DNA of 64,000 nt from a virus: positions 59,389 to 123,388 of the IMG/VR virus record IMGVR_UViG_3300009129_000005; one strand, written 5' to 3'. The first letter of the stretch is position 1. The number at the start of each line of letters is the position of its first letter. Under the pieces are notes generated by a model. It ran no database searches. It saw only the letters and a list, made by a program, of their open reading frames with translations, and had not been told where the DNA came from. Below are positions 45,205-63,884 of the stretch, piece by piece. A program made the translations under genes and the position numbers.

Positions 45205-46149
45205 ATGGCATCAGGATATACAATTAGCAAACACGGTGTTACAGGCACTAATAATGGCGGAAGTTTTAATATCGCTGATGATACTGTAAACGTAACAGAT
45301 ACTAGTTTAAGTTTAGTGGGCAAGTATCATGTTGGATATGGTGCAGACATTGCACAAAACTCGGTTAGCTTATTAGAAAATTTTGCAAGTGACACAGAAC
45401 CATCTAATCCAATTGAAGGTCAACTATGGTGGCACCCAGCAGAAGAACAATTAAAGATAAGACATGACGGTGCATGGTTAGGAATAGATTCAGATTCAAA
45501 AGTAGCTACAGTAAAAGATACTCTGAACGTAAACCATACTGTAGTATTAACTAAAGTAAATGGTGTTTATGTTTCTTTAACAAGTTCAGATAATGCAGAT
45601 TGGATTATTAATGTATCTGAAACAACAATTGAACCTTACTTTAGAAATAACGGTTTAGTAGGTACAGCGGATAACGCAACTATTAAACCAGGTATTAATT
45701 TAAGTACAGATAGTACAAGAGGAATGAAGTTTCATGGAACAGCAACCACTGCACAATATGCTGACGTTGCAGAGCTTTATACATCTGATATAGAATATGC
45801 TCCAGGTACTGTCCTAACAAACAACACAGATGATTCACAAGAAGTTACCCAAACAACACATTCATTAGACAATAATGTTATTGGCGTAGTAACTACAGAC
45901 CCAGCATTATTAATGAATAGTGTATTGCCAGGAACTACGGTTGGGGTAGCATTACTTGGCAGAACACCATGTAAGGTTACCGGCGAAGTTACTAAGGGTG
46001 ATAGAATTATCAGTAGTGACGTTCCAGGACACGGTCAATCAGTAAACGCTGTTGAAGAATTTTCATATCAACATATTGTTGGCAGAGCGATTGAATCAAA
46101 AACAACTCCAGGCGAAGGTATAATAGAAGTAGTAATCGGAGTAAAGTAA
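45205..46149 (+). CDS. Short tail fibre-like protein with a C-terminal self-folding domain
   Basis: 314 residues; AGGAG before the ATG. N-terminal beta-rich part (TPSNPIEGQLWW-like phrase EPSNPIEGQLWWHPAE, common at fibre attachment domains) and a C-terminal domain starting near KFHGTATTAQYADVAELY, then YAPGTVL, GVVTTDPALLMN, VALLGRTPCKVTGEVTKGDRI, resembling the C-terminal domain of several phage fibre or head-fibre proteins. That domain may be an intramolecular chaperone-like cap. Role inferred: short fibre. Confidence 0.65.
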   Translation: MASGYTISKHGVTGTNNGGSFNIADDTVNVTDTSLSLVGKYHVGYGADIAQNSVSLLENFASDTEPSNPIEGQLWWHPAEEQLKIRHDGAWLGIDSDSKVATVKDTLNVNHTVVLTKVNGVYVSLTSSDNADWIINVSETTIEPYFRNNGLVGTADNATIKPGINLSTDSTRGMKFHGTATTAQYADVAELYTSDIEYAPGTVLTNNTDDSQEVTQTTHSLDNNVIGVVTTDPALLMNSVLPGTTVGVALLGRTPCKVTGEVTKGDRIISSDVPGHGQSVNAVEEFSYQHIVGRAIESKTTPGEGIIEVVIGVK

Positions 46150-47440: not shown

Positions 47441-47788
47441 ATGGACGAAAGACTCGAGAAGGCACTAGAGTTTAGTAATTATGCTTTAACCATTAATAAT
47501 CAAAAAAGAAATATTAGAAATAGAGTTGCACAATTACAAATTGTACATCACTTAGGTGGTGTGTTTATTGCTAATCACGAAACAATTGCTTTTGTAAAGG
47601 CATTAATTGACTTAAAACATAAGAATTCTGTTGTTATTGATAGTAAAAACAATCCTATTACAGTAAAAAGTTTAAAGGATTTACTAGAAAAACTTGTAGA
47701 TGCATACACAAGTGCTACTACTGAATTTGATATTGAGAACGAAAAACTTAAGAAAGCACGAAACATTAAGAAAATAATGGATTGGTAA
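47441..47788 (+). CDS. Small helical protein, first gene of the glycan operon
   Basis: 115 residues; AAAGGAG before the ATG. Lys/Glu/Asn-rich, with three predicted helices (LEKALEFSNYALTINNQKRNI, NHETIAFVKALIDL, and a C-terminal coiled coil ENEKLKKARNIKKIM). It ends in TAATG shared with the first glycosyltransferase-like gene. I recall similar short proteins in marine T4-like phages, of unknown function. It could be either a late virion protein or a regulator. Confidence 0.65.
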   Translation: MDERLEKALEFSNYALTINNQKRNIRNRVAQLQIVHHLGGVFIANHETIAFVKALIDLKHKNSVVIDSKNNPITVKSLKDLLEKLVDAYTSATTEFDIENEKLKKARNIKKIMDW

Positions 47789-48687
47789 TGGGAGAAATTC
47801 TTGCACCAAAGGGCATATGCTTCTTTGCCTATAACAATGATCAACTAGACTATGTAAAAATGGCACTTACCGCTGGTAAGTATGCTAAGAAAAATTTACA
47901 TTTGCCTGTATGTTTAATTACAGATGATGGTTCTGAAAGTTGGCTAACCGAAAGTCAACCCAAAAAACTTATTAAAGAAGTGTTTGATTACATTGTGATT
48001 ACTAATGATAAGTTGAAAGAAAATCGCAGACGTCACTTTGATAGCCCGTGGTCGGAATTCGCTGCACAATTTAATAACAGTAACAAACATAAAATATATC
48101 AATACAGTCCATTTGAACAAACATTATTATTAGACATTGATTATATTGTAAAGACAGATGCATTATTAAAATACTTTGACAGCACCCATCCAGTATGTAT
48201 GTTTGATAATGCATTAACTATTAGAAACGAACTACCACTGTTACCTGAACGTTTCTTATATGATGCAGGAATTAAAATGTGGTGGAGTACTGTTGTTTAT
48301 TTTGATCGTAGTGATTGGAGTAAATTATTTTTTGATACGTGGGCACACGTAGCTGATAACTATGAATTCTATCAGTACTTGTATAACTTTCCAAGTAAGT
48401 TATTCCGTACAGACTATTGTGTAAGCATAGCAGTGCATATACTTGGCGGTATGCAAGAAACTCAAGTATCTCTAGGTAACTTTGATGATACTCCTATAGT
48501 GAACATGAGTCAGAAAGATGATATTATAGAAGCAAATGATATTAATGAATGGATAATGATTGCACATGATCAAAAAGAAGAATGGAAAAACATTTTAGTT
48601 AAAGTAGGTAAACAAGATATACATGTTATGAACAAGAGAGCATTTGAAAGAGTAATTCCAAAGTTAATGGAGACATTAAATGGATAA
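47788..48687 (+). CDS. Glycosyltransferase-like protein (GT-A type), copy 1
   Basis: 299 residues starting at MGEILAPKGICFFAYNN; the start overlaps the upstream stop. The GT-A order is visible: an N-terminal strand-helix, LPVCLITDDGSE, and QTLLLDIDYIVKTD, a DxD-like motif (D-I-D) at about residue 115. No signal peptide or membrane segment. Likely adds sugar to a phage or host product. Followed by a paralog with 8 bases of overlap. Confidence 0.65.
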   Translation: MGEILAPKGICFFAYNNDQLDYVKMALTAGKYAKKNLHLPVCLITDDGSESWLTESQPKKLIKEVFDYIVITNDKLKENRRRHFDSPWSEFAAQFNNSNKHKIYQYSPFEQTLLLDIDYIVKTDALLKYFDSTHPVCMFDNALTIRNELPLLPERFLYDAGIKMWWSTVVYFDRSDWSKLFFDTWAHVADNYEFYQYLYNFPSKLFRTDYCVSIAVHILGGMQETQVSLGNFDDTPIVNMSQKDDIIEANDINEWIMIAHDQKEEWKNILVKVGKQDIHVMNKRAFERVIPKLMETLNG

Positions 48688-49531
48688 GGAAGATAGAGGC
48701 TATGTAATATTGGCTATGCAAGACTTTGAATATGAACAAGCCACTGCTCTTGCATATAGTATTAAGATACATAACAAAGATGCTAGTGTTACATTAGTAA
48801 CTAACTATGTTGATCGTGTACCACATCATTACGAAGAAGCATTTGATTATTTGGTCGACTTGCCGTACCCTAGCAACGATATTACTAGAGTAAATGATTG
48901 GCAATTATATTGGGCTACTCCATATGTACATAACATTGTAATTGATTGTGCAAGTCTTGTAAAAGAGAATCATGATAGTATTTGGGAATACTTGGAAGAC
49001 CATTATGATATTTACTTTTTTAATCAATCATTTAATTTTAGAGGAACACAATTAGAAAACAAAACATTTAAATTACTTGAAGAAGAATATAAACTTAGTA
49101 CAGTATACTCACATATGTTTTACTTTAAACACGATACGGATTTAGCACTTGCATTTTTTAAACTAGCTGACGTGTATATGCAGAACTGGAGAGAAATTTT
49201 TGCACATTATATAGGAGAAGCACACCGCCCAAGTACATATGTTAATGACATAATGTATAGTTTATTAAACACAATAATATTATTTGAACAGCCGGCATTG
49301 CATAACAACATTATAAACACAATTAACATGCCAGCTACATTAATGGCAGGCGACATTGGGCAATGGGACAAATGGACTGATAGACTAAATGTTTGGAACA
49401 GCTATGGAGCAAAAGTAAAAATTCAAAACTTTGCAGTCGCTACCAATTTATATTATGGAGAACAAGAGTTCATGACGGAAGATATTTTTAATGGCCACCG
49501 AGACACTTATAGAGCAACAGCAAAACGTTAA
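48680..49531 (+). CDS. Glycosyltransferase-like paralog with altered DxD
   Basis: 283 residues. Same layout as the gene before it: GYVILAMQDFEYEQATALAYS, VTLVTNYVDR, then YVHNIVIDCASLVKEN in the place of LLLDIDYIVK. The second Asp of the DxD-like motif is replaced (D-C-A), so metal binding may be altered or lost. Tandem duplication with later change of function is likely. It is followed by an unrecognised gene with a 41-base overlap. Confidence 0.55.
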   Translation: MDKEDRGYVILAMQDFEYEQATALAYSIKIHNKDASVTLVTNYVDRVPHHYEEAFDYLVDLPYPSNDITRVNDWQLYWATPYVHNIVIDCASLVKENHDSIWEYLEDHYDIYFFNQSFNFRGTQLENKTFKLLEEEYKLSTVYSHMFYFKHDTDLALAFFKLADVYMQNWREIFAHYIGEAHRPSTYVNDIMYSLLNTIILFEQPALHNNIINTINMPATLMAGDIGQWDKWTDRLNVWNSYGAKVKIQNFAVATNLYYGEQEFMTEDIFNGHRDTYRATAKR

Positions 49532-50471
49532 ACGTTCTTACTTTATAGTATTTGATGAGAGCGGAAAGATACGTAAGATCAATAGCACCCCAATAACAAA
49601 GTTAAATGATAAAACATTAACTCAAATTGAAAGTACTAATCCAGTCTGTAAAAAACTTATTAAGGGCGAGGTTGGTTTAAAGAAGTATGGAATTATATGG
49701 GACATACTTAATGAGAAATGGGATATTGATCTTCGTCGTACTAAATTAGTGCTAGAGTTAAAGCATAATAAACTATTACCATTTGTATATGGAACTGATA
49801 TAACAACTACAGAAATGTTTGTTAATATATTTTATAATGATAATGTTGCTGTAGTACAAGTCAATAAAGATAAAATTAAACGTATTAAAAATTTAAGTGA
49901 TATAACAGAAATATCAACACACGAAACAGAGTTACTAGATATATACATTACAAGAAAGAATGATCCAGATTATTTAATTACTGTACTTAAATTAGATCCA
50001 TTAACTCTTTTTAGAACTGGGTTGCAAAAGATAGAACTTGGTATTACTGAACACGTAGACTGGCAAAATATTAGTATGTATACAAAGCCAGTGTTTAGTA
50101 ATTATGGTTGGAATTTATCAGACTCTATGGCAGACGTTCCTATAATAACAAACACAGTTTTACAGAAATCAAATAACAAAGATAAAAATAACATAAATAT
50201 TAACGTAGTAGATAATACTTTATATCTTAATAGTAAGTTAACTAAAGCACAAGAATATTATTTTGATGGACAGGCTGTACTACGTGTTGTTGTATGCGAC
50301 CATACTCCAGATAACTTAGTAGGTGCGTTTGAGGTACCTGTTAAACTTTTATTAGATAATGAAGTAAGCACGACAACAATAAACTTTAAATGGCCTAAAC
50401 AGCCATTGCTGTTATATAAAAATAATTATTTAACAGTTAGCACAGGAGATACACATGAGCAAAATGACTAG
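49491..50471 (+). CDS. Unknown protein in glycan operon
   Basis: 326 residues; GGAAG about 9 bases before the ATG, which lies in the end of the previous gene. Begins MATETLIEQQQNVKRSYFIVFDESGKIRKIN. Lys/Asn/Ile-rich with alternating strands, ending in a beta-like LLLYKNNYLTVSTG. No catalytic motif recognised. The long overlaps on both sides point to a genuine coupled gene. Virion or glycan-related role cannot be decided. Confidence 0.6.
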   Translation: MATETLIEQQQNVKRSYFIVFDESGKIRKINSTPITKLNDKTLTQIESTNPVCKKLIKGEVGLKKYGIIWDILNEKWDIDLRRTKLVLELKHNKLLPFVYGTDITTTEMFVNIFYNDNVAVVQVNKDKIKRIKNLSDITEISTHETELLDIYITRKNDPDYLITVLKLDPLTLFRTGLQKIELGITEHVDWQNISMYTKPVFSNYGWNLSDSMADVPIITNTVLQKSNNKDKNNININVVDNTLYLNSKLTKAQEYYFDGQAVLRVVVCDHTPDNLVGAFEVPVKLLLDNEVSTTTINFKWPKQPLLLYKNNYLTVSTGDTHEQND

Positions 50472-51441
50472 CATTAATGAGTTTGATATTGTATTCATTA
50501 GCTATGACGAACCAAATGCAGACGAAAACTATAATGATTTAATTAACAAAGCACCGTGGGCTAAACGTAGTCATGGAGTATTTGGAAGTGATGCGGCACA
50601 CAAGGCCGCGGCAGACTTAGCAGAAACAGATAGATTTATTGGAATTGATGCTGACAATATTGTACATGATGATTTCTTTGGTGTTGAAGTTGATATGAAA
50701 AAAGTTAGAGATACTGACGTTATTAGTTGGGCTGGAAAAAATATAGTTAATGGATTAGTATATGGCAACGGTGGGATTAAGTGTTGGCCTAAAGAAGTTG
50801 TGTATGGAATGCAAACACATGAGAACGCACCTAAGGGTGACAAGAGAGCACAAGTAGACTTTTGTTGGAATATTAATTACGTGCAAATGAATAATATTTA
50901 CTGTGATGTAATGAACAATGCTAGTCCACTACAAGCGTGGCGAGCAGGTTTCCGTGAAGGTGTTAAGATGGGATTAGTTAATGGTGATGTTATTGATCCT
51001 TTACAACTTAGAGAAAAGGTACACGACAAGAATTATAAACGATTGCTTACATGGATGAGTGTTGGTGATGATTGCGAAAACGGACTGTGGGCTATTTACG
51101 GTGCAAGGTTAGGATGTCATATGACAAACATTACTAGAGAAGATTGGGATTGGAAAAACGTTAGAGACTTTGATTGGCTAACTAAATTCTATCACAGTGA
51201 TGTGTTACCAAACTTTGAAGAGAGTAGTGATCAACTTTGTCCACGTACTGGAATGAAATGGAATTATAAAACATTACAAGATGAAAGTAATAGACTTGGT
51301 TATGAGCTACGTTCTAAATTAGATCTTGAAATTGCTGACTTAGGTAAAGAAGGCTCACGCTTCTTTAAGAAAGTATATATAAACCCTAGCAGAATGGGTG
51401 CTCAGATTAGAGAAGACCAAGTAGAAGATACATTGGAGTAA
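50455..51441 (+). CDS. GT-A type glycosyltransferase-like protein
   Basis: 328 residues; GGAG about 7 bases before the ATG. The N-terminus FDIVFISYDEPNADENYNDL is a nucleotide-sugar-binding strand, and TDRFIGIDADNIVHDDFF contains a clear DxD (IDADN, near residue 65), preceded by HKAAADLAE. The C-terminal half (WMSVGDDCENGLWAIYGARLG, NVRDFDWLTKFYHSD) is rich in Trp and Asp. Likely transfers a sugar from a nucleotide donor in the cytoplasm. Confidence 0.65.
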   Translation: MSKMTSINEFDIVFISYDEPNADENYNDLINKAPWAKRSHGVFGSDAAHKAAADLAETDRFIGIDADNIVHDDFFGVEVDMKKVRDTDVISWAGKNIVNGLVYGNGGIKCWPKEVVYGMQTHENAPKGDKRAQVDFCWNINYVQMNNIYCDVMNNASPLQAWRAGFREGVKMGLVNGDVIDPLQLREKVHDKNYKRLLTWMSVGDDCENGLWAIYGARLGCHMTNITREDWDWKNVRDFDWLTKFYHSDVLPNFEESSDQLCPRTGMKWNYKTLQDESNRLGYELRSKLDLEIADLGKEGSRFFKKVYINPSRMGAQIREDQVEDTLE

Positions 51442-51443
51442 TT

Positions 51444-52667
51444 ATGTCTAATACACGACAAAATCTGAGTCCAGGAGAATCATCAATTAGGTGGACAAAA
51501 GATCCTTTGTTTGGTAACGTATGGATTAAAGATACTACAGGACTAGACTTTGATGAAGATCCTGACTTGAGTGGTAAGTATTGTCAGAAACTTTACACAT
51601 GGTTTGAGGTTGATACGTATGGGAACGCCTGGATGTGTTGTCCTGCTTGGTTGCCTTATAGTATTGGTAATATATTAGAAAATAGCATAGAAGAACTTTG
51701 GAATGGCAAACGAGCACAGGAATTACGTAATCAAGTTTTTACTGGTAAGTGGAAATACTGTCAAGCTAGTTTTTGTCCATGGATACAAGGAGACCATCTT
51801 CCTGACATAAAAGATGTGTTATTAAAAGAAAACTCAACATTATATATTTCAGATGCAGAAATTAATGCATTACAAAATAAGTCATTAATATCTACACGAT
51901 TGCCTACAAACATTAACTTTAGTAATGATGAGAGTTGTAACTTAAGGTGCCCAAGCTGTAGAATAGAAAAAATATTATACACCGAAGGACCATTATATAA
52001 TAAACGAAAGAAAATTAATGATAAAATTATTGAGACATTTTTAACAACACCAACAGACAGACATTTTAGTATTTTTGTAACTGGCAGTGGAGATCCATGG
52101 GCTAGTAAAATTTATAGAGAAATGTTGTATAACATAGACGGAAACGACTTTCCTAATCTCGGAATTAGTATGCAAACAAATGGTGTTATGTATACTCCTA
52201 AATTATGGAATCGTATTAGTAAGATACATAAAAATTTAAGAGACTGTCGTATTAGTTTCGATGCTGGAACTAAAGAAACATACGAACACAAAACAAGATT
52301 AAATGGAGATTGGGATTTATTATTATCTAATTGTGATTTCTTAGATAAAAAAAGTAATGAGCTTTCTGGATTTAACATTCATTATGACTTTGTTGTACAG
52401 TATGACAACTACAAAGAAATGAAAAGATATATAAGGCTTGTGCAAGAACGTTTTCCTAATCACGCAGATATTTGTTTTAGCTTGGTTGCCGATTGGGGCA
52501 CATGGTCTGATACGTCTGCAGAAAATTATAACAGTAAATGTATATGGAAAAAAGATCATCCAGAGCATCAAAATTTTTTAAACATTTTAAAAGATCCTAT
52601 ATTTGATAGCAAAGGAGTTGTCTTAGGCAATTTAACATCAATGAGAAAGAAAGCGTTATCGCAATGA
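51444..52667 (+). CDS. Radical SAM enzyme 1 with N-terminal cysteine-rich domain
   Basis: 407 residues; TTGGAG upstream. The canonical CxxxCxxC is C165-NLR-C169-PS-C172. Before it a SPASM/twitch-like domain is seen (C47, C65, C66, C106, C111, with the phrase IGNILENSIEELWNGKRAQEL), so the auxiliary cluster domain precedes the barrel, the reverse of the common order. ISMQTNGVMYTPKLWNRI and CRISFDAG fit the barrel strands. Uses S-adenosylmethionine and iron-sulfur clusters for a radical reaction; substrate unknown. First of three consecutive such genes. Confidence 0.8.
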   Translation: MSNTRQNLSPGESSIRWTKDPLFGNVWIKDTTGLDFDEDPDLSGKYCQKLYTWFEVDTYGNAWMCCPAWLPYSIGNILENSIEELWNGKRAQELRNQVFTGKWKYCQASFCPWIQGDHLPDIKDVLLKENSTLYISDAEINALQNKSLISTRLPTNINFSNDESCNLRCPSCRIEKILYTEGPLYNKRKKINDKIIETFLTTPTDRHFSIFVTGSGDPWASKIYREMLYNIDGNDFPNLGISMQTNGVMYTPKLWNRISKIHKNLRDCRISFDAGTKETYEHKTRLNGDWDLLLSNCDFLDKKSNELSGFNIHYDFVVQYDNYKEMKRYIRLVQERFPNHADICFSLVADWGTWSDTSAENYNSKCIWKKDHPEHQNFLNILKDPIFDSKGVVLGNLTSMRKKALSQ

Positions 52668-54145
52668 ATGAAAACGAATTAAAACATGCATTAGTTATGA
52701 AAGACCGACTTAATAAAGTTGGTTCGGGATTCTGTTTGGCTAAGTGGGATCAGGTAACAATGCATTTACATAATGGCATGACTCATAGTTGCCATCACCC
52801 AGCACCTCATAAGATACCGTTGATAGAGATTGAAAATAACTATAAAGCAATTCATAATAGTAAAGAAAAAATCAGTGAACGACAAGCAATGATAAACGGA
52901 GAACGTCCTAGCCCTTGTAACTTTTGTTATAAAATGGAAGATAATAATTCTGAAGCAGTTAGTGATCGTTATCTCAAAAGTGCTAATCTATTTGAAAAGA
53001 GTTTTGATAAAATTGTTAAGAGCGGCACAGGAAAAGAATATGTTCCAGAGTATGTTGAGGTTAGTTTTAGTAATGTATGTAATTTAAAATGTACGTATTG
53101 TGGCCCACACTTTAGTAGCAAGTGGCAACAAGAACAAGAACAAGAAGAACCAATTATGTTACAAGATGAGCATGGACCTAATTGGGATTATCATAGTCTT
53201 GACTATCTTAAAAGCAAAGACGAACTTCCTATACCACATAAAGATCATAATCCATATGTTGAAGCATTTTGGAAATGGTGGCCTGAATTAAGAAACAATC
53301 TTAAAACTTTACGTGTTACTGGCGGCGAGCCTTTAATGGCAAAGGACACATTTAAACTTTTAAAAGAGTTAGAAAACATTCCAGCACCTGAAATGCAATT
53401 AGGAATAAACACAAATTTAAATGCTCCACAGAAAAATTGGGAACAACTAATAGACTTTATAAAGAAAAACGAACAGGAGAACCTTGTTAAGAAAATAACA
53501 TTGTATACTAGTTTAGACGGATGGGGAGAACAGGCAGAGTATATACGTAGTGGATTAGATTTTAAATTGCTATGGGATAGATTGCTTTATATAATTGAAG
53601 AGCATCCTTCAGTAGACAATACTATTATGACAGCGTACAGTGTATTAAGTTTACCAAGTTATAAAAAAATGCTTGAAGAAGTATTAGCTATAAAGAGAAA
53701 ACATAATATGTATAACGGAGGTCTAGAAAGTAGATTCTATCAATACAAAAACTGGATGCAAGAAAATGGAAACGGTGATTTCTTTGTTAGAGGTGAAAAG
53801 CCATGTAGTGTACATATAGATATTAGCCCTATACGTTTTCCTTGGTTTCTTAGTTTAGCAAGTGCCCCTAAAGAATTATCAATGCCTTATCTTTGGGATC
53901 AATATAAATTTATGATGGGAAATTTAACACTAGGCAACGACAACAGAAACTTTTATGACTTTGAAGCAGAAAAGATGGGTCGTGTAAATGACTTGGCTTT
54001 CTACAGAGAAATGTCAGATAAATGGTCAAGAATTAACATGTCTAATTTTAGAAAGTATATTGATACAATAGACAAACGTAGAGGTACTAACTTTTGTAAA
54101 GTATTTCCTGAACTAGAAGAATACTACAGAGGTTGCAATGAATAA
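52664..54145 (+). CDS. Radical SAM enzyme 2 with N-terminal cysteine-rich domain
   Basis: 493 residues, starting inside the end of enzyme 1 (ATGA). CxxxCxxC is C139-NLK-C143-TY-C146; LRVTGGEPLMA is the GGE motif that positions S-adenosylmethionine. N-terminal cysteines C24, C43, C85 and C88 (SPCNFCYKME) look like half of an auxiliary iron-sulfur site. The C-terminal part (SRFYQYKNWMQENGNGDFF) is unusual. Closely coupled to enzymes 1 and 3, so the three may act in series or on one substrate. Confidence 0.82.
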   Translation: MNENELKHALVMKDRLNKVGSGFCLAKWDQVTMHLHNGMTHSCHHPAPHKIPLIEIENNYKAIHNSKEKISERQAMINGERPSPCNFCYKMEDNNSEAVSDRYLKSANLFEKSFDKIVKSGTGKEYVPEYVEVSFSNVCNLKCTYCGPHFSSKWQQEQEQEEPIMLQDEHGPNWDYHSLDYLKSKDELPIPHKDHNPYVEAFWKWWPELRNNLKTLRVTGGEPLMAKDTFKLLKELENIPAPEMQLGINTNLNAPQKNWEQLIDFIKKNEQENLVKKITLYTSLDGWGEQAEYIRSGLDFKLLWDRLLYIIEEHPSVDNTIMTAYSVLSLPSYKKMLEEVLAIKRKHNMYNGGLESRFYQYKNWMQENGNGDFFVRGEKPCSVHIDISPIRFPWFLSLASAPKELSMPYLWDQYKFMMGNLTLGNDNRNFYDFEAEKMGRVNDLAFYREMSDKWSRINMSNFRKYIDTIDKRRGTNFCKVFPELEEYYRGCNE

Positions 54146-55427
54146 AATTTTTGATATTATTAATAACAATGCTTCTGAAAAAGAAATTATAAAACAAACA
54201 GAAAGTTATTGCCCATTGCCGTGGAGCCACTTACATGTCAGTGCAAGTGGTGATGTGCTTCCTTGTTGCATAGGGCAATGGAAAATGCCATTGGGAAATA
54301 TAAACAAACAAAGTTTTGATGACATATGGCAAGGTGATGAAATTAATAAAATACGCAAGGCACTTGTAGATGATAAGAAAGTACCTCAATGCAGTACGTG
54401 TTACTTAAAAGAAAAGGATAGTGGATTTAGTTTACGGCATGATGCTATTGCGAAGTTTCATAATGTAAGTAAGGACATGGTGCTTAGTACTAATGAAGAT
54501 GGGTCGGCTCCTGATGCACGTCCAGTGTATTGGGATATTAGGTTCAGCAATATATGTAATATGCGTTGTAGAATGTGTGGACACTTTAGTAGTAGTAAAT
54601 GGTATGCTGATGCTAAAAAGTTAGCAGACGATGGCATATACAATTATGGCACTGATAAAGATCAAGCTATAATACATGGTGTGGAAGATAGTGAAAAATT
54701 ATTAACCAGGTTAGAAGAGTATTTGCCTTACGTGCAAGAGTTATACTTTGCAGGAGGTGAGCCACTGTTTATGGAAGAACATTATACTATATTGAATAAA
54801 CTTATTGAGATGGGGATAACAGATGTGTTCATTCGTTATAGCTCTAACCTTAGTATAATGAAATATAAAAATACAAATGTAGTAGACTTATGGAAACATT
54901 TTAGTAATGTTTATTGTGCAGGCAGTATAGATACATACGGTGCTCGTGCAGAAAACATACGCAAGGATACAGTGTGGTCTGAGATAGAAGATAATATGAG
55001 ACTAATAAAAACAACAGCACCAAAAGTTTGGCTAGGCATTAGTCCTACAATACAAATTATGAATGCATATACAGTATGTGAATTAAACGAGCAATGGATT
55101 AGTAATGGTTGGTTAAATCGTTGGACTATGTATTGGAATATTTTATCCAGCCCTAGTTTTTATAATATACAACACTTACCAGATCATATGAAACAAGAGC
55201 TTATAGAGATATGGACTAAGCATTTGAAATGGCTTAAGATTAAAAAAAATAGTCCAGTGCATCACACAGTTAATGCTACTATTAAGTGGATGCTTAGTGG
55301 AAAACACAATCCAGAAGAGTTGATTAAAATGTGCGACCACACCAAACGTATTGACAAGTTGCGTAATGAAGATACACGTTCAGTTTTTCCAGAGCTTAAT
55401 TATATATGGGAAAACTATTGGGAATGA
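54138..55427 (+). CDS. Radical SAM enzyme 3 with N-terminal cysteine-rich domain
   Basis: 429 residues, overlapping the previous gene by 8 bases. CxxxCxxC is C140-NMR-C144-RM-C147, and LYFAGGEPLFM is the GGE motif. The N-terminal domain (CPLPWSHLHVSASGDVLPCC, GNINKQSFDDIWQGDEINKIR, C85-STC88) is a clear SPASM/twitch-like pattern. Related N-terminal twitch radical SAM proteins are known from phages and marine bacteria, with unknown substrates. Overlaps the next start by ATGA. Confidence 0.82.
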   Translation: MNKIFDIINNNASEKEIIKQTESYCPLPWSHLHVSASGDVLPCCIGQWKMPLGNINKQSFDDIWQGDEINKIRKALVDDKKVPQCSTCYLKEKDSGFSLRHDAIAKFHNVSKDMVLSTNEDGSAPDARPVYWDIRFSNICNMRCRMCGHFSSSKWYADAKKLADDGIYNYGTDKDQAIIHGVEDSEKLLTRLEEYLPYVQELYFAGGEPLFMEEHYTILNKLIEMGITDVFIRYSSNLSIMKYKNTNVVDLWKHFSNVYCAGSIDTYGARAENIRKDTVWSEIEDNMRLIKTTAPKVWLGISPTIQIMNAYTVCELNEQWISNGWLNRWTMYWNILSSPSFYNIQHLPDHMKQELIEIWTKHLKWLKIKKNSPVHHTVNATIKWMLSGKHNPEELIKMCDHTKRIDKLRNEDTRSVFPELNYIWENYWE

Positions 55428-56653
55428 TACCTTACATAGAACAGAACGAATATTGGAGAGATAATCTCATACTTGAACTACTTGATTCTAGATATAAGCT
55501 GATACAAAGAGATAATGGTGTTTACATACACTGGTGTGAAATTACTAAAGACCCTGACAGCCATGACGCTATACAAGGTAACATACTGCCGTTTATTCCT
55601 ACTAAAGTAATAAACGACTTACGTACAAACGACGCATGTATTGTTTTTAGCACATGGCAAGAAAGTACTAACCCAGTGGATGATTATCCAATAGAACATT
55701 GTATTGATTTTGACTTAGTATTAGAAAAGTTTTGCGATGATAATAATATACCTTGTCGCAATGTTGTGTGGGTTAGTGGAGACTTAAAAGTACAAGAGAG
55801 GCAAAAGAGTAAACGTATTAAAGCATATGGATTTACATGCTATGGGCATGATATACTACGACACGTAGAAACTGAGATAGACAAGACACAATGGAACTTG
55901 CAACCAATTACTAAGCGAACGTTTGAAAAAGACTTTATATGCTTACAACGTTTTATGAAGCCAGGTAGAATATACTGGAGTTTATTATTGTATAGGAATA
56001 ACTTTATACATTCACAGTATGTTAGTATTGCAGATAAAATAGCAGGCTGGAGTTTTTTTGAAAAGGCTAAAGCATTTTATTTGTCAGCAAAGAAACATTA
56101 TAAACATATGTCTGCTTACAACTTATCGTGCGACCAATACTTTAAAGATATGTGGCATGACTTAGCAGATTTAGGACTTAGTGTTCCTGTAACAGTAGAT
56201 GTACAAGACCATGATAAGAATTGGTGTGCAGGTTGGGATACTACATTAAGTAGTTTGGAATTTTATAATAAAAGTTTTGCAAGTGTAATAACTGAAACAG
56301 ACATGCAGAGCAATGGATTGTATATTAGTGAAGCTACATTTAGGCCATTTATATATCAACAACCCTGTGTCTGGGCAGGACAAGCAGGCATTGTTAAGCA
56401 ATTAAATGATTGGGGATTTAAGACCTGGTCTTGGTTAGCAAGTGAAGATTATGATAATTGTCATTATATGATTGACAGATTAAATATGTGCAAGGATAGT
56501 TTAATAGAAATGATATCAACAAGTAGAGATAAAAAAGTTTTAGAACGTATACACGAACAAAATATCTATAACTGGAATCATCTACAGAATAAATTTGTGG
56601 AAGACCAAAGAACTAGATTTATTAAATTGTTAAATGATATTGTAAATAAATAA
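55424..56653 (+). CDS. Exostosin-like glycosyltransferase (putative)
   Basis: About 409 residues from the ATG at 55424, which shares ATGA with the radical SAM 3 stop; an ATG at 55406 in frame is possible but has no ribosome site. The C-terminal part has SEATFRPFIYQQPCVWAGQ then LNDWGFKTWSWL, resembling the donor-binding motif of exostosin/GT47-type enzymes in marine phages (pattern TEKTFKP-P-GFKTF, from memory). No transmembrane segment. Function in glycan transfer inferred. Confidence 0.55.
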   Translation: MIPYIEQNEYWRDNLILELLDSRYKLIQRDNGVYIHWCEITKDPDSHDAIQGNILPFIPTKVINDLRTNDACIVFSTWQESTNPVDDYPIEHCIDFDLVLEKFCDDNNIPCRNVVWVSGDLKVQERQKSKRIKAYGFTCYGHDILRHVETEIDKTQWNLQPITKRTFEKDFICLQRFMKPGRIYWSLLLYRNNFIHSQYVSIADKIAGWSFFEKAKAFYLSAKKHYKHMSAYNLSCDQYFKDMWHDLADLGLSVPVTVDVQDHDKNWCAGWDTTLSSLEFYNKSFASVITETDMQSNGLYISEATFRPFIYQQPCVWAGQAGIVKQLNDWGFKTWSWLASEDYDNCHYMIDRLNMCKDSLIEMISTSRDKKVLERIHEQNIYNWNHLQNKFVEDQRTRFIKLLNDIVNK

Positions 56654-56664
56654 CATAGGAGTAA

Positions 56665-57528
56665 ATGGTGATTTTATTAACAGGTGCAAATGGATTTATA
56701 GGAAACTATTTGCGTAATAATATAGACTGTATCACAGTTGACTATGAAAACTGTGACTTCAATGGAGATTTAAATGACTGGAATTTTATTCAGAGTTTGC
56801 CAGATGTTGATACAGTAATACATTTAGCCGCGTTTAATAGTACAAAGAATTTTTATAGTACGCCGTTTAGTGTAATAGATAGTATTATAACTCCTACAAT
56901 GAATTTATTAAAGCGTTACACTAATGCTCACTTTGTATATGCCGGAAGTAGTGAAGGATATGCTGGTACTGTAAATTTGGGTTGGACTGAACCACCCACA
57001 CCAGAAAATGTTCCTCTAACAATAGAAGACATAACTAATCCACGTTGGAGTTATGCTAGTGGTAAGATTGCAATGGAGAGTGCAGTAATCAGTAATAGCG
57101 TACAAAATGGGAACACATATACTATTATTCGTTTTCATAATATATACGGGCCTGGACAAAAGAATCATTTTATTCCAGAGTTTGTAGATAGAGTACGCAA
57201 TAAAGATTTTGTTCTATATGGATATGATAACACTCGTAGCTTTTGCTATATTGATGATGCAGTAGACTTAATAACAAAAGTATATAATACTAAAAATGAG
57301 ATTATTAATATTGGTTCTCCAGATGAGAATAAAATAATAGATGTAGCTCGTGTTATTATGTCGCAACTAGAATTAGATAATGAGAAATTAGAACTACATC
57401 CAGACCCACCTGGTAGTACACGAAGAAGACTACCAGACTTAACTAAACTGAATAGTCTTGTTACTGACTTTCAGTACACACCGTTAGAAGAAGGAATAAG
57501 GAGAATATTAAATGGTATTAAAAACTAG
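56665..57528 (+). CDS. NAD-dependent sugar epimerase/dehydratase (SDR)
   Basis: 287 residues; ATAGGAG before the ATG. Rossmann motif GANGFIGNYL (G7, G10, G13 spacing), VIHLAAFNS, and the catalytic pair in RWSYASGKIAMES (Tyr-x3-Lys), then FHNIYGPGQ and SFCYIDDAV typical of the extended SDR sugar epimerases. Likely makes or changes a nucleotide sugar in this operon. There is an 11-base gap before it, unlike the overlaps elsewhere. Confidence 0.85.
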   Translation: MVILLTGANGFIGNYLRNNIDCITVDYENCDFNGDLNDWNFIQSLPDVDTVIHLAAFNSTKNFYSTPFSVIDSIITPTMNLLKRYTNAHFVYAGSSEGYAGTVNLGWTEPPTPENVPLTIEDITNPRWSYASGKIAMESAVISNSVQNGNTYTIIRFHNIYGPGQKNHFIPEFVDRVRNKDFVLYGYDNTRSFCYIDDAVDLITKVYNTKNEIINIGSPDENKIIDVARVIMSQLELDNEKLELHPDPPGSTRRRLPDLTKLNSLVTDFQYTPLEEGIRRILNGIKN

Positions 57529-58024
57529 CGACAACATGATTGGCCAGAAAGCATGGGCTATTGGAGATATGGTAAATGGCACACCAAGTCTTGTAATGAT
57601 TATTTGTAACCACTGTCCTTATGTATTATTTAGAATGCCAGCAATATCACAGTTAGTTAAAGATTATAATGACAGAGTATATTGCATAGCAGTGAATAGC
57701 AATGATAGTAGCAAGTATGAAGAAGATGCTCCAGAGCTTATGCCAGAGTTTAAAAACAAATATGGTCTTGCATGTGAATATATGTTTGACGAAGATCAAA
57801 GTATAGCACGTGCATACGGAGCAGTATGTACTCCAGAGTTTTATGTAGTTAACAGCGAAGGCATTATAGTGTATCATGGCGAACTAGACGCAAGTCATAC
57901 AAGCAATGACTTAATGCCCACAGGCAGTAGTTTACGTCATGCATTAGATTTAACTCTTGCTGGAAAAGAAATTACATGGGATGTAAATCCAAGTTTTGGT
58001 TGTAGTGTAAAATGGAAAGCATAA
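57512..58024 (+). CDS. Thioredoxin-fold/peroxiredoxin-like protein
   Basis: 170 residues, overlapping the epimerase by 17 bases. VMIICNHCPYVLFRMPAI holds a single active-site Cys (H-C-P-Y) and GEAVCTPEF-like AVCTPEFYVVN, the cis-Pro element, comes later; the C-terminus has PSFGCSVKWKA. This fits a redoxin family with CPYV motif. In a glycan operon it could protect or reduce the radical SAM proteins' clusters or a substrate, which is speculation. Confidence 0.75.
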   Translation: MVLKTSDNMIGQKAWAIGDMVNGTPSLVMIICNHCPYVLFRMPAISQLVKDYNDRVYCIAVNSNDSSKYEEDAPELMPEFKNKYGLACEYMFDEDQSIARAYGAVCTPEFYVVNSEGIIVYHGELDASHTSNDLMPTGSSLRHALDLTLAGKEITWDVNPSFGCSVKWKA

Positions 58025-58761
58025 TGGAAAGACAAAGCCGTAAGTATAAAAATGATTATAGAGATTTGAGTTATCGTTGGCAAGACGAACTTAAATCTAT
58101 AGACAACGAAGAATGGAAAAAAGAAATTGCATACAACTGTAGTCCATTTACTGTTACGCAATTGCCAGCAGTTTTAGATTTAATAGATACAGTTGAAGAT
58201 ATTATATTAAATGACATACCAGGAGACTTTGTAGAATGCGGAGTCTTTATGGGCGGCAGTTGTATGATCATAGCTGAGGTTTTAAAACATTATAATGTTA
58301 ATCGTACTATATGGCTTTTCGATACATTTGATGGAGTACCTATGCCGAGTGAACATGATGTTACTCCTGAAGGCGAAAGTTTAAAGGATTGGTATAAGAA
58401 TAAAAAATTAGATACTAATAATAAAAGCACATGGTGTTATTCTGCATTAGATGATATAAAAGAAAACTTTACAGAATGTAATTATAAAGGTGATACAAAA
58501 TTTATAATAGGCAAAGTAGAAGATACTATACCTAATAATGCTCCTGATAACATTTCTCTTTTAAGAATAGATGTTGATCTTGCAGAGTCAACAAGACATG
58601 TATTAGATCATTTGTATCCAATACTAGTTACAAACGGGCATTTAATTTTAGATGACTATGGACATTTTCCTGCTGTTAAAGAAACAGTAGATGATTATTT
58701 TAAAAATGATCCTAAGACATTACAAGAAATTACATATACAGTTAGGCATATAATAAAATGA
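58024..58761 (+). CDS. TylF/MycF-type sugar O-methyltransferase
   Basis: 245 residues from MERQSRKYKND, the ATG overlapping the previous stop (TAATG); an ATG 12 bases earlier is also possible. Motif I PGDFVECGVFMGGSC, then LFDTFDGVP, and SLLRIDVDLAESTRHVLDHL and HLILDDYGHFPAV match the macrocin O-methyltransferase family, including the metal-binding Asp residues. Methylates a sugar or related hydroxyl with S-adenosylmethionine. Confidence 0.85.
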   Translation: MERQSRKYKNDYRDLSYRWQDELKSIDNEEWKKEIAYNCSPFTVTQLPAVLDLIDTVEDIILNDIPGDFVECGVFMGGSCMIIAEVLKHYNVNRTIWLFDTFDGVPMPSEHDVTPEGESLKDWYKNKKLDTNNKSTWCYSALDDIKENFTECNYKGDTKFIIGKVEDTIPNNAPDNISLLRIDVDLAESTRHVLDHLYPILVTNGHLILDDYGHFPAVKETVDDYFKNDPKTLQEITYTVRHIIK

Positions 58762-59549
58762 AAATAGGATTAATAGGATTAGGTGTTGTAGGCAAAGCCT
58801 GTAAAGAAGGCTTTGAACATTGTGGCTACAATGTAGTTGCACACGACATAGCACTTGATACAAAAATAGAAGATGTATTAGAAACTGAGATTACATATCT
58901 TTGTGTTCCTACACCTACTAATGACAAAGGCGAATGTGACACTAGTATTATTGAAAGTGTTATTCATGAGTTAAGGCAGTTAAAATATAAAGGCGTTATA
59001 GCAATTAAGTCAACTGTTGAGCCTGGAACAACAGCAAGGTTAATAAAACAGTACGATGATAAAATTGTATTTGTTCCTGAGTTTCTTAAAGAACGTAGTG
59101 CAGAATATGATTTTATATTTGACCACAGACTGTTATTAGTAGGAACAGAAAACGTAAACTATTATTATCTAGTACAGCGTTCACATGGTAAGTTACCAGA
59201 TGACATAATGAGAGTGCCACCAACAGAAGCAGAACTAATGAAATACTATCACAACACATTCAATGCATTACGTGTAGTATTTGCAAATGTAATGTTTGAG
59301 ATAAGTGATAAACTTAATGTGTCATATGATACAGTGAAAGAAGCATTTTTAAAGAACAGCGATTTACCTGATGAGTACCTTGATGTTAAACCTGAACTGC
59401 GAGGATACGGTGGTGCTTGTTTACCTAAAGATGTTTTAGCAATGAACAACGCATGTAAAAAATTAGGAATACCAAACAAGTTGTTTGAGTATATTGATAA
59501 AGAAAATAAACTATTTAAGAAAACAGTATTCAAAGGAATGAGACTATAG
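58758..59549 (+). CDS. Short UDP-glucose/GDP-mannose dehydrogenase-like protein
   Basis: 263 residues. GLIGLGVVGKACKEGF is the NAD site, CVPTPTNDKGECD and KSTVEPGT the usual loops, K162 and N166 in EAELMKYYHNTFNALR the catalytic pair, and GYGGACLPKD carries the catalytic Cys (C221). Typical family members have about 400 residues: the C-terminal UDP-binding domain is missing here, and the reading frame ends naturally. Either a minimal enzyme, a partner-dependent one or an altered function. Overlaps neighbours by a few bases. Confidence 0.75.
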   Translation: MKIGLIGLGVVGKACKEGFEHCGYNVVAHDIALDTKIEDVLETEITYLCVPTPTNDKGECDTSIIESVIHELRQLKYKGVIAIKSTVEPGTTARLIKQYDDKIVFVPEFLKERSAEYDFIFDHRLLLVGTENVNYYYLVQRSHGKLPDDIMRVPPTEAELMKYYHNTFNALRVVFANVMFEISDKLNVSYDTVKEAFLKNSDLPDEYLDVKPELRGYGGACLPKDVLAMNNACKKLGIPNKLFEYIDKENKLFKKTVFKGMRL

Positions 59550-60208
59550 TGAGTTATTTAGAAGACAATAAAGAAAATGTATATTTTAATAATGATGCTA
59601 ATCTGTTTTGGGGGGTCATAGAACATTTTAGACACAGTGATAATAACCGTCTTTGTATCGATATTGGCACATTTTATGGAGGCTATGCAGAGAGATATGT
59701 ATCTTTATTTGAAAACGTAGTTTGTTTTGAAGCTAATTATTATATTGAAAAAGATTTAAGAAATAGAATGGCTAAAACAAAACATGATAATTATAAAATT
59801 TATATGAATGGACTAGGCAAACCCGAAGACCATAACACTGAAAAGTTGTTCTATGCAGTTACTTGGGCGCCTCCTCACAATACACGTTGGAGTGGCATCA
59901 GCAGTTACAAAAGCGATCACTTCACAAACTGGCCCGAGAAAGAAGTGAACATAACTGAAATTACTACTACGGTTAGGACATTAGATAGCTATAACCTAGC
60001 ACCTAGTTTTATTAAAATGGATGTAGAGAATTCAGAATCAGATGTTATTATGGGTGGAATAGAAACTATATCAAAGCATAAACCCACACTACAAGTAGAA
60101 GGCAAAGGAAGTATAGAATTAATAAAAAGTTTAGGATATCGTTTAGTAGCTCAACGAAAATGTCATGGCGCACTACACGATAATATATATGTATATGGAC
60201 AAATGTAA
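59549..60208 (+). CDS. FkbM-type methyltransferase
   Basis: 219 residues; GTG start overlapping the previous TAG by one base (TAGTG). CIDIGTFYGGYAERY is the SAM-binding loop, VVCFEANYYIEKDL follows, and FIKMDVENSESDVIMGG is the FkbM family signature. Family members O-methylate sugars or polyketide-like substrates. Coupled to the cupin gene by 14 bases of overlap. Confidence 0.8.
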   Translation: MSYLEDNKENVYFNNDANLFWGVIEHFRHSDNNRLCIDIGTFYGGYAERYVSLFENVVCFEANYYIEKDLRNRMAKTKHDNYKIYMNGLGKPEDHNTEKLFYAVTWAPPHNTRWSGISSYKSDHFTNWPEKEVNITEITTTVRTLDSYNLAPSFIKMDVENSESDVIMGGIETISKHKPTLQVEGKGSIELIKSLGYRLVAQRKCHGALHDNIYVYGQM

Positions 60209-60569
60209 AATACTTACAGCAGATTTATTTGAAGATGAAAGAGGAACTACTCGTAGTTTCTATCCTGACGAAGATATTGTAGAGTATAATCTAATGATTA
60301 CTAAAAAGGGCGATGCTCGTGGTTATCATTATCACCCACACTTTGTTGAGTATATGATTATAGTAGATGGTGAATGTTTGTTTAAAGAGTACAGCGATAG
60401 TATACATGAAACAGTGCTAACCGAAGGCGACAGTATACGTATACCTAGTGGCACAGCACACACGTTTATAGCATTAACAGACTTTAAGTTTGTTAGTATG
60501 CTTACAAAAAGGTGGCACGATAGCGACCCGCCAATAGTAAAGGTAGATGAATATGGCAAACCCATTTGA
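60195..60569 (+). CDS. Cupin-fold protein (sugar-isomerase-like)
   Basis: 124 residues from MDKCKILTADLF; the ATG at 60195 has no clear ribosome site, and an ATG six bases earlier is also possible. RGYHYHPHFVEYMIIVDGECLF and GDSIRIPSGTAHTFIAL show the two cupin motifs with histidines. Size and motifs recall the sugar 3,4-ketoisomerase/epimerase group (FdtA-like, RmlC-like), acting on dTDP-sugars, but other cupins are possible. Confidence 0.65.
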   Translation: MDKCKILTADLFEDERGTTRSFYPDEDIVEYNLMITKKGDARGYHYHPHFVEYMIIVDGECLFKEYSDSIHETVLTEGDSIRIPSGTAHTFIALTDFKFVSMLTKRWHDSDPPIVKVDEYGKPI

Positions 60570-62117: not shown

Positions 62118-62697
62118 GAAAAACATTGTAATAGTAACGCCTGCTAGAAGCGGAAGTAGTTGGCTAGTCAGTTCGTTTGGTAGAGAAAATTATAACGAGC
62201 AACCTCTTAGTCTAAGTGAAACAAACAATGATAAGAAACTAAGTTTACAACAAAGAATAGATATACTAAACTCTAATAAGCCTTTTGTAACAAAAGTGTT
62301 TACTGATGAAATGATTGACTTGGAATTATTAAAGGATGATGATGTTGAATTTATATGGTTGTATAGACGTAACCTTGTTGAACATTTTTTAAGCAATGTA
62401 CTTGCTTGGCGAACACAAGTGTTTAATGTACACCAGCACGAATGGTACTGGCCTCCTACAACACTTAATATAACAGATGATGATTTAAATATATATGAGA
62501 ACATTGTTAAGTGTCAAAAGAAAGCATATAAAAAATACAAGGATTGGTTTACATATGAAATTGCATACGAGGATTTGTTTACTAACAATCCGTGGAATTT
62601 CAAATCAACAGACGACAAGACTGTTAAGTTAAATCATTATTCAGATGAATGGATTGCGTTAGCAACTAATAAACTACAAGAGAGAAATATAATATGA
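62104..62697 (+). CDS. PAPS-type sulfotransferase-like protein
   Basis: 197 residues; the ATG overlaps the end of the previous gene. The PAPS loop VTPARSGSSWLV (residues 12-20) and FIWLYRRNLVEHFLSNVLAW (3'-phosphate-binding element R-x-N-x-V-x-H-x-x-S) are visible, with a C-terminal YEDL. Shape and size fit the cytosolic/Stf0-like sulfotransferases, shorter than usual. It would transfer sulfate onto a glycan, a rare phage activity. Confidence 0.65.
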   Translation: MLNGKKNIVIVTPARSGSSWLVSSFGRENYNEQPLSLSETNNDKKLSLQQRIDILNSNKPFVTKVFTDEMIDLELLKDDDVEFIWLYRRNLVEHFLSNVLAWRTQVFNVHQHEWYWPPTTLNITDDDLNIYENIVKCQKKAYKKYKDWFTYEIAYEDLFTNNPWNFKSTDDKTVKLNHYSDEWIALATNKLQERNII

Positions 62698-63884
62698 GAC
62701 AAGTAAAAAAAGTAAACGTATGCCGTAGTTGTGGTTACGATAACATGCCTACAGTATTTGATATGGGTGACTTAAAAATTAATGCATTTATGAAAGAGCC
62801 TAACACTGATGTAGGTACTGCACCACTTACACTTGTGCATTGTCCTGAGTGTGACTTAATACAACTAGACCATACAGTACGTGAGCAAGAGTTATATGAA
62901 AACTATTGGTACTTGTCAAGACTAAACAAAAAGATTGTTGACAATTTAGAAAGCATTACTAAAGCAGTAACTATTAATGACGGAGATATTGTACTAGACA
63001 TTGGTGCTAATGATGGAACCCTATTAAGTTTTTATCCTGACACAGTTACTCGTGTTGGATGTGATCCTGCTAAAAATATTCATAACGAATTAGTTAAGCA
63101 TACTGACATTATGATACCAGACTTCTTTAATTGGGATAACTGGATTAGACATGTAGGTTTAACTCGTCGTGCTAATGTAATTACTACAGTAGCTATGTTC
63201 TATGACTTAGACGATCCTAATGCATTTGTGCAAGACATTGTTCGTGTATTAAGTAAAGACGGTGTGTGGCTATGTCAACTTATGACGGCTCGTCCTATGC
63301 TAGACAGTAACGACCTTGGAAATATTATACACGAACACATAGAGTATTACAGTTACAAGAGCTTAGTAACATTAATGGAAAGACATGGGCTTGAGATATA
63401 TAAGGTACGTGAGAATGATATCAACGGAGGTAGCTATCAGTTATTCATTAGACATTACAATACTGGCAGTGTAGACTTCCAAGAAGATATTAGTAGTGAA
63501 CGTATCAGTGCTTGGGCAGATAACATTGCAACGAATCGTACAGACACTATGGAGTTTATTCATAGAGAAGTTGCTAATGGTAAAAAGATTTACATAATGG
63601 GTGCTAGTACTAAAGGCAATACTATTATGCAGTACTATGGATTAGATAGTGATACTATTACTGGAGCGGCTGAAATACATCCAGACAAGGTTGGAAAGTA
63701 TTTAGTAGGAAGTAGTATTCCTATTGTACACGAAGATGATGCAAAGAAAGATGCAGACTATTTTCTAGTGTTCCCATTTCATTTTAAAGAATTATTTGTA
63801 AACAAGATTATGAAAGACTGGATAGCTGAAGGTGGACAACTAATATTCTGCACACCAAAGTTTGAGGTAGTTGGTAATGAGTAA
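62694..63884 (+). CDS. Sugar C-methyltransferase (NovU/TylC3 type) with zinc domain
   Basis: 396 residues. N-terminal zinc site C10, C13 (VCRSCG) and C50, C53 (HCPECD), then the SAM loop VLDIGANDGTLLSFYP near residue 99, NIIHEHIEYYSYKSLVTLMERHGLEI and NGGSYQLFIRHYN, and a C-terminal NAD-like MGASTKGNTIMQYYGL. All three parts are the layout of nucleotide-sugar C3-methyltransferases. Adds a methyl to C3 of a keto-sugar. Stop overlaps the next start by 8 bases. Confidence 0.9.
   Translation: MRQVKKVNVCRSCGYDNMPTVFDMGDLKINAFMKEPNTDVGTAPLTLVHCPECDLIQLDHTVREQELYENYWYLSRLNKKIVDNLESITKAVTINDGDIVLDIGANDGTLLSFYPDTVTRVGCDPAKNIHNELVKHTDIMIPDFFNWDNWIRHVGLTRRANVITTVAMFYDLDDPNAFVQDIVRVLSKDGVWLCQLMTARPMLDSNDLGNIIHEHIEYYSYKSLVTLMERHGLEIYKVRENDINGGSYQLFIRHYNTGSVDFQEDISSERISAWADNIATNRTDTMEFIHREVANGKKIYIMGASTKGNTIMQYYGLDSDTITGAAEIHPDKVGKYLVGSSIPIVHEDDAKKDADYFLVFPFHFKELFVNKIMKDWIAEGGQLIFCTPKFEVVGNE

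Follow-up and report, generated by a model that had tools for sequence, protein, structure and literature searches.

The window analysed here is a stretch of 64,000 nucleotides (nts) of a viral genome (IMG/VR record IMGVR_UViG_3300009129_000005, positions 59,389 to 123,388 of that record), and all positions given are those of the window. The element in question is a row of three genes, termed A, B and C, which encode radical S-adenosylmethionine (SAM) proteins and lie between a conserved set of genes next to the tail genes and a block of sugar-modifying genes. The source genome is that of a T4-like phage, as shown by PHROG matches of the portal, baseplate wedge, major head and SbcC-like proteins. 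The module appears to be a phage glycan-tailoring cassette, set around a catalogued protein family (NF033640) of unassigned function.

Architecture and family of the three radical SAM proteins

The open reading frames (ORFs) of A, B and C are adjacent on the + strand (Table 1), with overlaps of 4 nts between A and B and of 8 nts between B and C. An earlier note on this DNA had described three adjacent, overlapping genes, each with a CxxxCxxC motif after a cysteine-rich domain, and the ORFs and an alignment confirm this. The motif cysteines are C165, C169 and C172 in A, C139, C143 and C146 in B, and C140, C144 and C147 in C. Ahead of them are four further cysteines (47, 65, 106 and 111 in A; 24, 43, 85 and 88 in B; 25, 43, 85 and 88 in C), which share alignment columns, and all three proteins have the N-terminal-twitch radical SAM architecture of four auxiliary-cluster cysteines followed by CxxxCxxC. 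The reversed domain order proposed in the note is also seen with Pfam, which places SPASM (47-107) before Radical_SAM (165-303, the latter below the Pfam cut-off) in A and SPASM (25-89) before Radical_SAM (135-291) in C. In B Pfam detects only Radical_SAM, and its N-terminal domain is therefore assigned from the cysteine alignment and the NF033640 match.

Conservation of the cysteines, the failure of which the earlier note had named as refuting its reading, held up in an alignment of 420 sequences (417 non-redundant phage relatives and the trio), 413 of which keep all seven cluster cysteines. Two of the seven exceptions are without the whole N-terminal set, one is without CxxxCxxC and one without all seven, and in the remainder the first position is a gap (two sequences) or Gly (one). 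The same alignment shows almost no variation in the GG(E/D)P region that binds SAM; in protein A this region reads TGSGDPW. The AlphaFold model of C is of high confidence, with a predicted local distance difference test (pLDDT) of 93.2 and a predicted template modelling score (pTM) of 0.88, and its fold neighbours are radical SAM structures. As far as conserved ligands and fold go, A, B and C are probably active two-cluster radical SAM enzymes.

The order of an N-terminal twitch followed by the radical SAM domain is shared with NCBIfam family NF033640 (N_Twi_rSAM, twitch domain-containing radical SAM protein), the name of which carries no function. B and C score 302.3 and 373.6 bits against a cut-off of 170 and are members, unlike A, which at 46.2 bits is a divergent relative. 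In the whole 123 kb virus record NF033640 matches A, B and C alone, and 30 of 30 diverse members of the A3 set match it at E ≤ 0.001. Pairwise identity between the three is 17-20% in the large alignment (in a three-sequence alignment, identity to C is 28% and 21%) and they fall in three separate clades of the tree, which rules out recent duplication of one gene and agrees with the note's remark that they are not simple copies. The viperin model NF038283 (cut-off 180 bits) gives 22.6 bits for B, 19.2 bits for C and no match for A.

Table 1. Genes from the tail region to the end of the sugar block, with positions in the window
Feature	Position	Strand	Remarks
TF314, tail-region protein	45205..46149	+	PHROG tail fibre / virion structural matches; constant upstream neighbour of the core
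c322, tail-region protein, 408 aa	46150..47376	+	no library match
c114, small conserved protein opening the core	47441..47788	+	function not assigned
Glycosyltransferase-like gene 1 (c279 family)	47782..48687	+	DxD motif in alignment; no Pfam match
Glycosyltransferase-like gene 2 (c279 family)	48680..49531	+	motif degenerate in window copy; no Pfam match
c326, variable beta-rich protein	49491..50471	+	candidate glycan acceptor or virion protein
Glycosyltransferase-like gene 3 (GTA315 family)	50455..51441	+	conserved D(G/A)DN motif (alignment of 15)
Radical SAM protein A	51444..52667	+	407 aa; N-terminal twitch; outlier
Radical SAM protein B	52664..54145	+	493 aa; NF033640 member
Radical SAM protein C	54138..55427	+	429 aa; NF033640 member
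GTB395 family, putative GT-B-type glycosyltransferase	55406..56653	+	C-terminal motif in alignment; no Pfam/PDB match
Nucleotide-sugar epimerase/dehydratase (short-chain dehydrogenase/reductase, SDR)	56665..57528	+	NCBIfam; PHROG 540 nucleotide-sugar epimerase
Thioredoxin-fold protein (AhpC-TSA/Redoxin)	57512..58024	+	Pfam
TylF-type O-methyltransferase	58012..58761	+	PF05711, E 4.7e-35
Nucleotide-sugar dehydrogenase	58758..59549	+	PF03721/PF00984
FkbM methyltransferase	59549..60208	+	Pfam
Cupin, sugar 3,5-epimerase-like	60165..60569	+	Pfam
Short DegT-type aminotransferase, 204 aa	60547..61161	+	PF01041
Two genes, 319 and 197 aa	61158..62697	+	no family match; conserved with cassette
C-methyltransferase	62694..63884	+	Methyltransf_13/23/14

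The trio and its surroundings in other phage genomes

The trio forms a genuine unit, being contiguous and in the order A-B-C on seven other viral contigs (3300027833, 3300025809, 3300020191, 3300022921, 3300033182, 3300017913 and 3300001846), and on a further contig, 3300013109, the proteins are 100% identical to those of the window. As 3300020191 and 3300022921 score identically and 3300033182 and 3300017913 nearly so, about five independent lineages are represented. The neighbours are the same, and the trio is thus found with its glycosyltransferase-like genes elsewhere. The earlier note had named the opposite outcome, single genes beside unrelated neighbours, as telling against a system. 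The downstream sugar block is present on six of the seven contigs, inverted in two, and the seventh ends inside the block. On three more contigs (L006, L067 and L410) A-, B- and C-like genes lie apart in one array, and the scan with A alone gave eight loci (one being the identical contig), all with B- and C-type genes, where subtype is called from the best of three small profiles rather than from placement in a tree. Identity across the seven trio contigs is 64-72% for A, 63-73% for B, 55-77% for C and 67-76% for GTA315; TF314 (32-44%) and c322 (26-31% where matched) are less conserved, and c326 is 21-34% identical where matched, with no match in one contig.

The wider counts are from loci that resemble B, C, GTA315, c114 or A, with several of the scans keeping the best 80 alone, and the loci are not independent, some sharing contigs (e.g. 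L005/L086/L407). The 160 loci behind the family and adjacency counts include the window's near-identical contig (L085) and Vibrio phage K566 (L165); the 160 behind the array-size counts leave out L085 but count L005 and L086 separately. At least two family members are found in 100/160 phage loci (the window's own excluded) and a contiguous run of at least three in 74/160, the longest run being seven; radical SAM arrays number 2 to 8 genes per locus. The family is abundant in uncultured phages, with at least 489 IMG/VR relatives in the trio-profile scan and 499 in the scan with B, yet it was matched by at most 3 of 50,697 phage records; cultured phages have therefore all but hidden it.

Three classes of locus were distinguished: type 1 with GTA315 and c279 (n = 70), type 2 with c476 (n = 58), and others (n = 32). 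The c476 protein is a Glycosyltransferase 7 domain fused to a Laminin_G (LamG) lectin domain and is usually present in two copies. At L033:657-2081 and L033:4868-5452 and in the 58 type-2 loci, the genes that come after this GT7-LamG protein are a radical SAM gene of B type and one for a second, small c244-family protein. Some arrays (21 loci, e.g. L009:11212-13368) also contain B12-binding radical SAM proteins, which are of a different type.

The genes upstream of the trio are near-fixed in order and tied to the tail genes. The type-1 order of c114, c279, c279, one protein and GTA315 was found at 62 of 64 c114 anchors, and scans anchored on c114 or GTA315, rather than on a radical SAM gene, recovered the core order in 59/59 and 58/65 loci respectively. 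Within the 160 loci c114 is found in 66 (with 548 relatives in IMG/VR), GTA315 has 101 members in 78, the two c279 genes are adjacent in 67 pairs, and downstream GTB395 has 222 members in 116. In 47 adjacent pairs TF314 is followed by c322, and in 60 pairs c322, a family with 81 members in 61 loci, is immediately followed by c114. Where there was enough sequence, a radical SAM gene lies within 6 kb of GTA315 in 43/44 loci of the c114 scan and 33/57 of the GTA scan. The first radical SAM gene after the core is of B type in 48/58 loci of the trio-profile scan (the first profile sequence of which is C), 25/38 of the GTA scan and 37/55 of the c114 scan, the subtype again being that of the best-scoring small profile. 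Upstream of the tail genes of the window a single ORF (34149-44543) encodes 3464 aa, with a match to a virion structural PHROG over the first 1333.

The earlier note had placed the trio between glycosyltransferase-like and sugar-modifying genes. The downstream part of this stands on Pfam matches, and the upstream label is read from DxD-type motifs in alignments, with no library match. As c279, GTA315 and GTB395 are without a Pfam match, all are named glycosyltransferases here provisionally; the conserved C-terminal motif of GTB395 may be read as GT-B-like. Inside the sugar block, the thioredoxin-fold protein, which has a CNHCPY motif, is retained on six trio contigs as part of the cassette, perhaps for redox protection or to supply electrons. 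The DegT-type aminotransferase matches parts of its profile piecewise and, being only 204 aa, may be shortened or inactive.

Substrate and destination of the proposed chemistry

A sugar or glycan is the probable substrate of the radical SAM enzymes, whatever the destination of the product. This is argued from the linked sugar block, the glycosyltransferase core, the gene cluster of Vibrio phage K566 and the lack of room for a precursor. In K566 a gene for a GT8 family glycosyltransferase separates the first of three radical SAM genes from the second, and another GT8 gene lies nearby, both above the Pfam cut-off. In the window no intergenic gap from 47441 to 63884 is greater than 11 nts, and a dedicated peptide-precursor gene was rejected as a candidate for this interval, which leaves overlapping or distant small ORFs as possible sites. 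Among the sugar, peptide and virion protein offered as substrates in the earlier note, the sugar has thus gained from the core, the block and K566, and the dedicated small-peptide gene has lost its support.

We propose that A, B and C would run successive radical reactions, for example epimerisation, alcohol oxidation or deoxygenation, on a sugar; the stepwise action raised in the earlier note is plausible. The target would be nucleotide sugars from the downstream SDR, dehydrogenase, aminotransferase and methyltransferase block, or the glycan after transfer. The two c279 proteins, GTA315 and GTB395 would, judging from their motifs, transfer the sugars in the cytoplasm, and the acceptor would most likely be a phage tail-region protein, either c326 or a tail fibre. 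The full statement, a radical-tailored glycan with its acceptor on the virion, is put forward tentatively. Three points favour a virion acceptor: the core is linked to tail genes almost without exception, genes for membrane export are lacking, and c326 is variable. A more elaborate version is doubtful as a whole: a constant, tail-fixed glycosylation core would add a sugar to a virion protein that is hypervariable (c326 or a tail fibre), a usually constant B-type enzyme would edit it first, and one to many further, exchangeable N-terminal-twitch enzymes would write phage-specific changes, so that each phage would have a chemically distinct surface.

No protein with at least three predicted transmembrane (TM) segments is encoded from 47441 to 63884, and the operon does not have the polytopic flippase, polymerase or exporter of a Wzx/Wzy- or ABC-type polysaccharide locus. 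Such polytopic proteins were found in 1/70 type-1 loci (a TctA transporter), 1/58 type-2 loci and 2/80 GTA-scan loci versus 42/69 bacterial loci. This is weak evidence, as phages generally have few such proteins and could use host export.

Several observations weigh against the proposal. The comparison of polytopic proteins had no control of phages free of radical SAM genes. Neither Pfam nor PHROGs nor, in any meaningful way, NCBIfam matched the proteins encoded at 47782, 48680 and 50455, and a search of solved structures with the GTA315 and GTB395 profiles and with the protein encoded at 55406 gave nothing credible in the PDB. The core is present without radical SAM genes in 24/57 GTA-scan loci, and these genes therefore look like frequent but optional tailoring cargo. 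For c326, the AlphaFold model is mostly strands and is poor (pLDDT 77, pTM 0.47), the best Foldseek match in the PDB has E 7e-4 at a TM-score of 0.15 and the best VIA match has Z 5.3 over 77 residues; in view of these weak matches no fold is named. The clear matches of c326 in the viral library (E 6.5e-17, 1.8e-11 and 1.7e-9) are to uncharacterised or unnamed phage proteins. Among the 71 same-strand neighbours of bacterial relatives the commonest Pfam families are Radical_SAM (7), ChaN (5) and B12-binding (4), and glycosyltransferases are absent from the most frequent.

The fold neighbours of C count on both sides: sugar enzymes rank first, and the list as a whole fails to separate sugar from peptide enzymes. 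The structures ranked first and second for its radical domain are BlsE (Z 11.9, root-mean-square deviation 3.4, 214 aligned residues) and DesII (Z 11.7, 4.1, 231), radical SAM enzymes that act on sugar-nucleoside or nucleotide-sugar substrates. Their sequence identity to the phage protein is only 11-13%, and the peptide enzymes SkfB, SuiB and anSME tie with them, within 1 Z. Also in favour of a sugar, a profile built from C and related sequences hits the BtrN twitch domain (E 7.9e-6), BtrN being the aminocyclitol dehydrogenase that acts on 2-deoxy-scyllo-inosamine in butirosin synthesis; this twitch resembles the phage N-terminal domain but lies at the C-terminal end of the BtrN chain (residues 162-257). 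Viperins are also near the top of the Foldseek list. The fold comparison thus gives the superfamily of C and no substrate class, and families outside those listed are not thereby excluded.

The same sugar chemistry could instead end in the host surface polysaccharide during infection, where the product would block superinfection or mask the infected cell. The nucleotide-sugar genes of the operon fit this as well, and glycosyltransferases in the host-recognition region of pelagimyophages have been read as modifying the host O-chain (PMC7029224, in the part of the text available). The operon is without a flippase, polymerase or exporter and polytopic proteins are almost absent from the loci, though export could come from enzymes of the host; a virion target accounts better for so regular a linkage to tail genes, and we regard the host surface as an unlikely destination.

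Somewhat less likely is that the radical SAM enzymes modify protein side chains of c326 or the tail fibre, by epimerisation or cross-linking, in the manner of maturases of ribosomally synthesised and post-translationally modified peptides (RiPPs) or proteusins, with the glycosyltransferases acting on the same protein. Many SPASM/twitch radical SAM enzymes use peptides (PMC11002830, from the portion available), c326 is a variable, non-enzymatic neighbour, and both the 2 to 8 radical SAM genes per locus and the tie of SkfB, SuiB and anSME in the fold comparison are in keeping with such an activity. It is opposed by the want of room for a precursor gene and by the RiPP maturase families, which matched weakly and below cut-off. 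The proteins scanned also had no Pfam or NCBIfam match to a PqqD-like protein or RiPP recognition element (RRE), a transporter or a peptidase, with the proviso that divergent RREs can escape such models.

A chance gathering of unrelated nucleotide, cofactor or host-takeover radical SAM genes (viperin-like or MoaA-like) in a hypervariable island of the tail region is very unlikely, since the viperin and MoaA models are matched weakly by 24/30 and 19/30 members (E ≤ 0.001) with scores far below their cut-offs, viperins in the Foldseek list notwithstanding, and a random island would not give a conserved order and a linked sugar block.

If the radical-tailored glycan proved correct, a catalogued family would gain a function, radical SAM sugar chemistry would reach viruses, and phage surface variation would have a chemical basis.

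Published accounts, cultured phages and bacterial relatives

Publications already describe many radical SAM genes in marine T4-like phages. An environmental (TARA) T4-like genome has 12 of them (PMC5332604), pelagimyophages differ in radical SAM cassettes of the host-recognition region (PMC7029224), and Tasman Sea viral contigs are enriched in radical SAM (PMC7150976), each according to the part of the text available. The pelagimyophage cassettes and the TARA genome are likewise marine and T4-like, in the tail-fibre region and near glycosyltransferases, and the available parts of these two accounts make no mention of domain order, arrays, gene order or subtypes. The literature searched, which left subscription papers and preprints outside its scope, gave no account of N-terminal-twitch arrays in phages, their domain order, the core, the subtypes or the module. 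The earlier note's view of an undescribed system is only partly right: the module was not found described in the literature searched, and the family is catalogued (NF033640) and the marine T4-like genes are published.

Vibrio phage K566 makes the question approachable in a cultured system. Both K566 and K567 (OZ196521 and OZ196593) likewise carry rows of N-terminal-twitch radical SAM genes together with GT8, but they are 255 kb phages, and no recognisable c114, c279, GTA315 or c326 lies beside the K566 genes; GTA315 and c279 gave no match in the phage collection searched. At the K566 locus (OZ196521, 148976-179578; radical SAM genes at 161548-165950) the cluster has three annotated radical SAM genes, with a fourth further on, and VPHK566_0308, annotated as hypothetical, also matches the N-terminal-twitch profile.

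Bacterial relatives are from Bdellovibrionota, Bacteroidota, Elusimicrobia and others. Their context was taken from 77 loci on genome contigs (the best 80 of 125 relatives). Loci treated as phage contigs (L168, L170, L176, L177, L201, L213, L214 and L226) were dropped from the neighbour count, and removal of L175:9133, a near-duplicate of L169, from 72 same-strand neighbours gave the 71 above. One relative lies beside a Polysacc_synt_3 protein (L173). The neighbours are diverse and named no substrate, and bacterial gene context was set aside as a guide to it. Three contigs of Bdellovibrionota metagenome-assembled genomes (MAGs; L220, L224 and L238) have many N-terminal-twitch radical SAM genes distributed over the two strands, whereas those of the phage arrays point the same way. 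NZHE01000012.1 (L213 and L226), binned as a Rickettsiales MAG, carries phage tail genes and the glycosylation core and, further along, 14 radical SAM matches in a row.

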